Assembly (NCBI GenBank): GCA_037951105.1 | Contig: JBAMJV010001866.1 | Location: forward strand, 1 to 64,000 | Source: Echinarachnius parma | Taxonomy: Eukaryota > Echinodermata > Echinoidea > Clypeasteroida > Echinarachniidae | Direction of reading: 5' to 3' | Length of the DNA: 64,000 nt | Shown: positions 9,101-12,100 of the stretch, in pieces | Layout: every line of letters begins with the position of its first letter | How positions within the stretch are numbered: the stretch's first letter is position 1 | Made by a program: the position numbers and the translations under genes | Notes under the pieces: model-generated | The model's database searches: none | What the model saw: only the letters and a program-made list of their open reading frames with translations | Told to the model about the DNA's origin: nothing

Positions 9101-12100
9101 CATCATCATTATTATCATCTTCCTCATGACCATCATCACTGTCAAAACCATTATCATCGTCATCATCAACATCATTACCATCATCACCATTATCATCATC
9201 ACCATCACCATCATCGTCATCATCATCATCACCATCACTATCACCACCATCATCATCATTCCCATTACCATCACCACCACCATCATCATCACCATCATCT
9301 CCACCACGACTCTCATTACCATCATCTTCATCATCGTGTCTAACTCACCCATAAGACCAGACCGGCCAGCAAAGCAGTGCAGTCACCACCACCGCCGTCA
9401 TCATCATTATCATCACAACAATTGATACCCATATATCATTGTAATCATTATCATGACCAACACCATCATCACCATTACCACCATCATCGCATCTAAGTTC
9501 TAACTCACCCATAAGAATACTTGTCGTTAGCTCTCCATTTTGAGATGATTGATGCAACCAGACCGGCCAGCAAAGCAGTGCAGTCACCACCACCACCGTC
9601 ATCATCACTATCATCACAACAATTGATACCCATATATCATTGTAATCATTATCATGACCAACACCATCATCACCATTACCACCATCATCGCATCTAAGTT
9701 CTAACTCACCCATAAGAATACTTGTCGTTAGCTCTCCATTTTGAGATGATTGATGCAACCAGACCGGCCAGCAAAGCAGTGCAGTCACCACCACCACCGT
9801 CATCATCATTATCATCACAACAATTGATACCCATATATCATTGTAATCATTATCATGACCAACACCATCATCACCATTACCATCATCTTCATCATCGTGT
9901 CTAACTCACCCGTAAGAATACTTGTCATTAGCTCTCCATTTTGAGACGATTGATGCAACCAGACCGGCCAGCAAAGCAGTGCAGTCACCACCACCACCGT
10001 CATCATCATCATCACAACAATTGATACACATCATTGTAATCATTATCACGACCAACACCAACATCACCATTACCATCATCTTCATCATCGTGTCTAACTC
10101 ACCCGTAAGAATACTTGTCATTAGCTCTCCATTTTGAGATGATTGATGCAACCAGACTGGCCAGCAAAGCAGTGCAGTCACCACCACCACCATCATCACA
10201 GTCATCATCACAACAATTGATACACATCATTGTAATCATTATCACGACCAACACCAACATCACCATTACCATCATCTTCATCATCGTGTCTAACTCACCC
10301 GTAAGAATACTTGTCATTAGCTCTCCACTTTGAGATGATTGATGCAACCAGACCGGCCAGCAGAGCAGTGCAGTCACCACCACCACCGTCATCATCATTA
10401 TCATCACAACAATTGATACCCATATATCATTGTAATCATTATCATGACCAACACCATCATCACCATTACCACCATCATCGCATCTAAGTTCTAACTCACC
10501 CATAAGAATACTTGTCGTTAGCTCTCCATTTTGAGATGATCGATGCAACCAGACCGGCCAGCAAAGCAGTGCAGTCACCACCACCACTGTCATCATCATT
10601 ATCATCACAACAATTGATACCCATATATCATTGTAATCATTATCATGACCAACACCATCATCACCATTACCACCATCATCGCATCTAAGTTCTAACTCAC
10701 CCATAAGAATACTTGTCATTAGCTCTCCATTTTGAGATGATTGATGCAACCAGACCGGCCAGCAAAGCAGTGCAGTCACCACCACCACCGTCATCATCAT
10801 CATCACTATCATCACAACAATTGATACCCATATATCATTGTAATCATTATCATGACCAACACCATCATCACCATTACCATTACCACCATCTGTCATCGTG
10901 TCTAACTCACCCATAAGAATACTTGTCATTAGCTCTCCATTTCGAGATGATTGATGCAACAAGACCGGCCAGCAAAGCAGTGCAGTCAAAGAACATGTGG
11001 AATGAGTCAGAAATAAGACCAAGACTGCAAACACAGATGGGATATAGAAGAATCAGTTTTTAAATCTAGTCAACTGGATTTTAGAAGAAGTAACTTCTTC
11101 ATTCAAGATTTATTGAGATTGTCAGTCTTGTTTGCATACATGTACTTACAACAAGGCCAAAATACATGTATGTTTTTATTCCAGTTTACTTTGTGTTCAT
11201 TGTATGATTAATATCAAAACTAAATTATCTCCACAACAGACAGGAGAATGAATTATAAACATACTCATTCATTGGGCTAAATAAATATAATGATTACAAG
11301 TGTTGTAACTATCCACCCTTGATTCGTTTCCAAGATGCATTTAATCTGAAACTACATAGCATAGCTAGGAATTTGTTTGAAAAACTGTGTTCTGAATTAT
11401 AAATCCACTTTCTAACCACAATATTAGCTTCGCTGTGGGTGAAGGTTTTGTCAACTGAAAAAAAAAATCCATTGAAATGTACATTAGGTGATTGAAACAA
11501 CACTTGTAATCGTAATCATATTTATCTAGCCCAATGAATGAGTAATGTAATACTTCAGTATCCTGTCTGTTGTGGAAATAATTTAGTTTTGATATTAATC
11601 ATGCAATGAACACAAAGTAATGTAAACTGGAATAAAACATACATGTATTTTGGCCTTGTTGTACTGCAAACAACTGATTCTATCTCAAGACTAACAATCT
11701 CAATAAATCTCGACTAAAATCATCATCATTATCAAAACACTGCGAAATGTGTCTTGCAGGATAAAAAGGTTGGCCACCTTGATACATATTCCTGCGTATG
11801 CTCACATCTACTCAAGTAAATGGTCCAGTCAGCTGGACCACACGCTATATACGTTAATATGGTGTAGCAAAGCATACTGGTCATTCGTAGTTTACTATTG
11901 CGCAATATCCAATTCCCGTTCAACACTTTCCCGTTGGTTTTAGGAAGGCTCGCTACTGAAATTGGAAATAAATTTTTTTCGACATTTTGCGGTCTTCAAA
12001 ACAACAGAGTTAGTACCGTAGTTGCTGGAGAACCCGGACGGGGGGAGAACCCGGCCAAAAAATGGACAGGGCTACCTTTGAAATTAGATTTGCCGAGAAT

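Follow-up and report, generated by a model that had tools for sequence, protein, structure and literature searches.

A probable intronic minisatellite whose first unit contains the end of a live coding exon in a ZnT7-type gene of Echinarachnius parma

How does the end of a working coding exon come to stand at the head of a row of its own partial copies, and do these copies do anything for the gene that houses them? The locus that raises this question lies in a stretch of DNA of 64,000 nucleotides which we refer to as the window (C1865:1-64000 in a 1.2-Gb assembly of 14790 contigs; GC 36%), and which is eukaryotic. An initial annotation described the locus as a nine-copy array of exon 3 and raised the readings that it is a passive satellite born inside a gene or a splice-donor cluster affecting exon 3 splicing or transcript structure. 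The explanation that we favour, with a probability of about 0.8, is that of an intronic minisatellite whose unit starts inside a coding exon, born in one tandem duplication and followed by unequal exchange.

The host gene is on the minus strand, where ten exons together form a single open frame (348 codons and a stop), both in the window and on a second contig (C14021) that we return to below. The predicted protein matches the Cation_efflux domain (PF01545) at E = 7.5e-50, and its best PDB match is human-type Zinc transporter 7 (E = 2.6e-139), the next being SLC30A1 (2.3e-42); the domain and the best match that mark a ZnT7 (SLC30A7) member of the cation efflux family are both present. Our gene model comprises exons 2-11, and exon 1 was not found. 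The located exons are:

13606-13505, minus strand: exon 2
11024-10911, minus strand: exon 3, intact, 114 nt, acceptor TTGCAG|TCTTGG, donor TATGG|GTGAGT; copy 1 of the array
8977-8890, minus strand: exon 4, the first real exon past the exon 3 array
8542-8422, minus strand: exon 5
7915-7790, minus strand: exon 6, with a His-rich loop
6946-6875, minus strand: exon 7
5347-5212, minus strand: exon 8
4162-4072, minus strand: exon 9
1863-1714, minus strand: exon 10
118-71, minus strand: exon 11

Exons 2-11 are open on both contigs. The donor of exon 9 is GT in the window (4072) and GC on C14021 (AAG|GCGAGT, at C14021:52399), and the gene's only nonsynonymous difference between the contigs is a Pro/His change in the His-rich loop of exon 6 (7790-7915).

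The array itself lies in intron 3 and, with the exon at its head, spans window positions 9343-11024 on the minus strand. Its nine copies are as the initial annotation had counted them, and the division into one intact and eight truncated copies needs a single refinement: behind intact exon 3 (11024-10911) stand seven full truncated units and an eighth (copy 9) which additionally has an internal deletion. The unit of about 200 bp and the near-identity of the copies also hold (Tandem Repeats Finder, TRF: period 201, 8.1 copies, 94% matches), with unit lengths along the array of 210, 201, 201, 196, 193, 200, 201 and 201, and so does the common start point, since every truncated copy begins at the exon point GGTGGTGGTGGT|GACTGCA. 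Each of the seven full truncated copies (copies 2-8) holds the last 77 nt of the exon, ending in YGG|GTGAGT, with the exon's first 37 nt absent; behind the GTGAGT donor, some 40-50 nt that resemble intron are followed by a GAT/GGT stretch. Compared with exon 3, these seven copies give E-values of 5e-33 to 1.5e-29. Two types of unit, with TTAGAACTTAGATG or TTAGACACGATG following the donor, are interspersed in the array. The copies and the tract into which they run are:

10577..10777, minus strand: truncated copy 2, 201 bp
10376..10576, minus strand: truncated copy 3, 201 bp
10180..10375, minus strand: truncated copy 4, 196 bp
9987..10179, minus strand: truncated copy 5, 193 bp
9787..9986, minus strand: truncated copy 6, 200 bp
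9586..9786, minus strand: truncated copy 7, 201 bp
9385..9585, minus strand: truncated copy 8, 201 bp
9343..9384, minus strand: truncated copy 9, about 41 nt of the exon part deleted, donor retained
9068..9333, no strand assigned: CAT/GAT tract (TRF) into which the array runs

Is such an array real? A genome-wide DNA search placed it, among the 40 of 573 candidates that were scored, on one further contig, C14021, the other matches being to the CAT-rich part only. The copies there number six, one intact exon 3 and five truncated, so that a single assembly contains the array with 9 and with 6 copies. The window and C14021 are colinear over about 19 kb; across the nine exons besides exon 3 there are 5 differences in total, and the introns diverge by several percent. 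We infer that C14021 is most likely the other haplotype of the window locus, with a recent duplication of the locus as the alternative. The initial annotation itself cautioned that mis-assembly might have multiplied a single copy, and we do work from a single assembly in 14790 contigs, but the truncated copies differ from one another at up to 5 of 77 exon nucleotides and the second contig has its own copy set, with different unit lengths; because its six copies carry variants of their own, assembly stutter is very unlikely, and we give an artefact next to no credence. Inside the last array copy of C14021 (about C14021:58865-59240) is an insertion with inverted ends (CCGAAAGAGCATCAAAAA ... TTTTTTTGATGCTCTTTCGG) which looks like a small mobile element.

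The birth of the array can be described as one tandem duplication, which would have joined a TGA in exon 3 (CTTTGA|CTGC) to a TGA in the GAT/GGT tract some 200 bp downstream (GGTGGTGGTGA|TGG). The site of this junction reads GGTGGTGGTGGTGACTGCACTGC in the copies and CTTTGACTGC in exon 3, and beyond the last copy of C14021, past the inserted element, the intron part of the unit runs undisturbed into the old tract, GGTGGTGGTGATGGTAATGGG. A junction at a shared 3-bp TGA would fit a microhomology-mediated or slippage-type tandem duplication. Intronic minisatellites (VNTRs) change copy number by unequal exchange, and the array would have spread in this way to its present 9 and 6 copies. Because exon 3 is the first repeat unit, such exchange would link it to the truncated copies, and exon and copies would draw on one pool of variants. 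Between the contigs, copy 2 of the window and copy 2 of C14021 are identical (0/77 differences), as are window copy 8 and C14021 copy 6 (0/77), with different numbers of copies in between. Of 105 pairs of informative sites, 32 fail the four-gamete test; the variants are thus mosaic and incompatible with a tree, as in VNTRs that turn over by exchange, with recurrent mutation as an alternative source.

Arrays of this kind are no rarity in the genome. Long-period arrays (at least 60 bp) occur in 13 of 19 sampled stretches (176,235 bases), at 2.1 rows per 10 kb, and some are as long and uniform as that of exon 3 (191 x 8.7 at 96%; 156 x 11.1 at 96%). We judge the exon 3 array to be a genuine and young minisatellite, common in kind for this genome, in which an exon end happens to be included. 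The suggestion of a passive satellite born inside a gene is thus strengthened by the 9 and 6 copies, the 3-bp microhomology at the birth point and the frequency of arrays in the sampled stretches, and we propose no positive function; the word 'passive' needs qualifying, since the array and the live exon have sequence in common.

Could the spare donors nevertheless be used? The units had been described as free of stops, which is wrong in the gene's frame: read through, exon 3 continues as ...NDKYSYG and then meets a TGA that is part of the donor GGGTGAGT; all full-length copies checked on the two contigs (14/14) contain GGGTGA. As this TGA belongs to exon 3's own donor, the protein would be cut short after codon YG whichever spare donor the exon were extended to. 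An open frame of 317 codons (10099-11052, minus strand) was rejected as coding, because its passage through exon 3 is not in the gene's frame. The earlier statement that acceptors are missing from the copies is almost correct. On the two contigs together, an in-frame AG stands 10-28 nt before the junction in 5 of 13 truncated copies (3 of 8 for the window), with a pyrimidine content of 0.31-0.50 versus 0.62-0.94 at the ten real acceptors, and the other 8 of 13 have no in-frame AG of that kind within 30 nt. With a donor and no competent acceptor, the copies would be ignored by splicing; their sequence gives no reason to expect that they are spliced in, and use would at most be rare.

The splice-donor cluster suggested earlier is therefore unsupported, given the in-frame TGA behind any extension to a spare donor and the weakness of the acceptors. 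In its strongest form it would make the eight spare donors a switch, competing with the real donor and tuning ZnT7 output through truncated, decay-prone transcripts. The donor core is indeed uniform (YGG|GTGAGT in 14/14 full copies, TGG|GTGAGT in copy 9), and any extension of exon 3 beyond its own donor meets the TGA immediately, yet intact donors are expected without selection because the copies are so young and alike, the copy number is 9 on one contig versus 6 on the other, and similar arrays are common in this genome; we regard such a switch as highly improbable. It is hardly credible that some truncated copies are spliced in as additional exons in frame, so that ZnT7 isoforms arise in which the transmembrane segment is repeated after an Asp/Gly stretch. 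An AG 10-28 nt upstream in 5/13 truncated copies would define an exon of 87-105 nt, in frame and stop-free, and the shared variants are synonymous (see below), but the pyrimidine content before these AGs falls short of that at real acceptors, 8/13 copies have no in-frame AG within 30 nt, and the protein would gain an odd additional membrane segment.

If the copies are probably untranslated, what do their variants tell us about the live exon? Between the window and C14021, synonymous differences in exon 3 number 8 over 26.7 synonymous sites, compared with 4 in 208.3 sites (plus one nonsynonymous) for the other nine exons (Fisher 3.9e-6). The 98 intron bases immediately upstream of exon 3 are identical between the contigs, so the divergence starts with the exon. 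The two live exons are in fact the most different pair of 91 (6/77), while the live exon of C14021 has 1 difference from window copy 4. Seven of the ten variable exon sites among the array copies are synonymous, including 5/5 of the variants found in at least two copies (null 0.24-0.36 per site), and the three nonsynonymous changes are each confined to one copy. Taken alone, the truncated copies have 5/8 synonymous sites, a weak excess (P 0.02-0.12), and 4/4 at shared sites (P 0.003-0.017). Variability in the exon part is not far below that elsewhere in the unit (10/77 versus 20/110 columns). Judged from these patterns, arrays and live exons evidently have recent, repeated common ancestry, in this gene and in a second one described below. 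Of the six exon 3 differences within the shared half, two occur in the window's exon alone (0/12 full-length truncated copies); a further two fall in the 5' half, missing from the truncated copies. These four are unexplained by exchange as seen here.

The synonymous-only variation might also have another history, which we hold possible but doubtful, in which the array formed very recently by unequal crossing of live-exon alleles that already differed, with no exchange since. The live alleles do differ only synonymously in exon 3; intron divergence between the two contigs amounts to several percent, and an array formed from differing alleles would inherit such differences; and nonsynonymous changes confined to one copy each are as expected of new mutations. 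Against this, the 32 of 105 incompatible site pairs require more than one event. A single recent origin departs from duplication followed by continuing exchange in timing only. In the other direction, it is a tentative and rather unlikely extension that the live exons are themselves members of turning-over tandem arrays, with the truncated copies as silent cassettes from which crossing-over swaps in a spare exon end and donor. If true, this would have raised the exon's synonymous diversity about fifteen-fold over the rest of the gene, it would keep unexpressed spare copies coding-competent, and it would have occurred at the matching exon of two zinc-transporter genes.

The second of these genes came from a profile search for Cation_efflux, which gave three overlapping matches on contig C1397:

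C1397:48324-48892 (stretch C1397:47501-49900): array in the paralogue, 155-bp unit, 3.4 copies, 95%

In the PDB this gene comes nearest to Zinc transporter 7 (E = 2.4e-16), and we take it to be ZnT5-like. Like the ZnT7 array, this one consists of the matching exon, intact and ending YSYG|donor, followed by truncated copies with donors; read-through again stops at the donor (TAA), and variation is again synonymous only (7/7 variable sites, P 3e-5 to 6e-4). The 110-nt exon part is complete in three copies, each with a GTAAGT donor. Unlike the ZnT7 array, it has a 155-bp unit, some 3.4 copies, other breakpoints and no CAT tract. Its copies are preceded by ACTAACAGTCTTAG, so the acceptor is less clearly absent there. 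Because units and breakpoints differ, the two arrays arose separately, and that both sit at the matching exon may be chance, which we estimate at about one in ten given some ten exons per gene. The genome search found the paralogue array at a single locus and no second one. The synonymous codons of the first part of exon 3 match the paralogue more often than those around it, on C14021 (11/14 versus 6/16, P 0.033) and in the window (10/14 versus 6/16, P 0.08); we do not claim conversion between the two zinc-transporter genes, because this region was chosen after looking.

Exon 3 is not the only exon with local copies. The initial annotation had missed partial copies of exons 5, 6, 8, 9 and 10 in the introns adjoining those exons:

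8645..8672, minus strand: remnant of an exon 5 copy, 28 nt; a longer version with an AG acceptor is at C14021:58003-58118
7428..7771, minus strand: three diverged exon 6 fragments downstream of exon 6, the last retaining a GTGAGT donor
5457..5549, minus strand: 5' end of exon 8 together with its acceptor, located before that exon; C14021 has no corresponding row
4721..4782, minus strand: 3' end of exon 8 with donor (GTGAGG), beyond a CAT/GAT tract at 4787-5190
4348..4460, minus strand: near-whole exon 9 copy with acceptor; its donor position reads AAG|GGGGAG
2444..2526, minus strand: 5' part of exon 10 together with its acceptor, located before that exon; more pieces at 2279-2328 and 3518-3580

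The 3' copy of exon 8 has the layout of the exon 3 array but is a single copy, and its protein is nearer to PDB Zinc transporter 7 (SILIAILIVV) than that of the real exon 8. The two copies of exon 9 were ruled out as mutually exclusive exons, the donor position of the upstream copy being GGGGAG. Altogether 6 of the 10 located exons have local copies on the same strand, with 19 fragments in total and 0 on the opposite strand. Wherever a splice site is visible, fragments with an acceptor lie upstream of the parent and those with a donor downstream, which is the necessary outcome of tandem duplication across one exon edge. For comparison, we took random segments of similar length to the exons, with low-complexity segments dropped: local copies exist for 152/600 segments in 17 sampled stretches of at least 8 kb (P 0.021), for 78/300 in the window at 20-64 kb (P 0.024) and for 126/300 in the gene's own introns (P 0.20). 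Unfiltered, the counts are 111/340, 59/150 and 70/150. These P values make any excess of exon fragments modest at most, and we dropped the idea of a striking one. An exon-level search for Cpn60/TCP1 gave 63 genome matches, among which we read a single pair on one contig (C7269) as overlapping in the profile, with six stops in one of its members; it is a weak control, because the Cation_efflux search listed no ZnT7 exon 3 copy either.

Set beside known systems, the exon 3 array resembles intronic VNTRs in its head-to-tail units of about 200 bp, alike at 94%, and in its mosaic variants; the 9 and 6 copies on two contigs would add variation in copy number between chromosomes if these contigs are, as is most likely, haplotypes. 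What sets it apart from the usual intronic VNTR is that the unit at its head belongs to a live coding exon with its donor, and exon and array consequently have variants in common. It shares with tandem exon duplications and mutually exclusive exons the duplication of sequence beside the parent exon in the same orientation, but the copies are partial, lacking the first 37 nt of exon 3 and a competent acceptor, and are unable to replace the exon. Partial exon duplications and pseudo-exons likewise leave exon fragments with one splice site in a neighbouring intron, as for exons 5, 6, 8, 9 and 10; unlike these, the exon 3 fragment was amplified to eight and five truncated copies. In the literature searched, at the level of titles and the openings of abstracts, we found no published description of a ZnT7 exon 3 array.

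The part worth following is the recent common ancestry of the array copies and the live exon, which is supported in two genes. Here a repeat is not walled off from coding sequence, and the end of a working exon is its first unit. If exchange is confirmed, unequal crossing-over at such arrays could rewrite exon ends and donors, and it would explain synonymous-only variation in probably untranslated copies, which could readily be misread as selection acting on exons that are expressed. Gene finders deserve a caution of their own, as 6/10 located exons of this ZnT7-type gene have intronic look-alikes nearby.

Several other repeats were seen in the window. Intron 2 contains an inverted repeat (11206-11291 and 11515-11600) with 86-nt arms that are 88% complementary and 223 nt apart. 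In introns 7 and 9, an element some 300 bp long and bounded by inverted ends (GGGTGTTTCACAAAGATCCTAAGT...) recurs at 1979-2289, 2595-2850 and 5912-6227, its copies being 71-88% alike. ARAGORN found no tRNAs in the window, and on the minus strand at 39458-39529 and 51172-51244 there are two tRNA-like matches barely over the Rfam cut-off (32.1 and 35 bits). At 54557-55086, a 33-bp unit is repeated in 16.1 copies with 99% matches; since 33 is divisible by three, several of its frames stay open.
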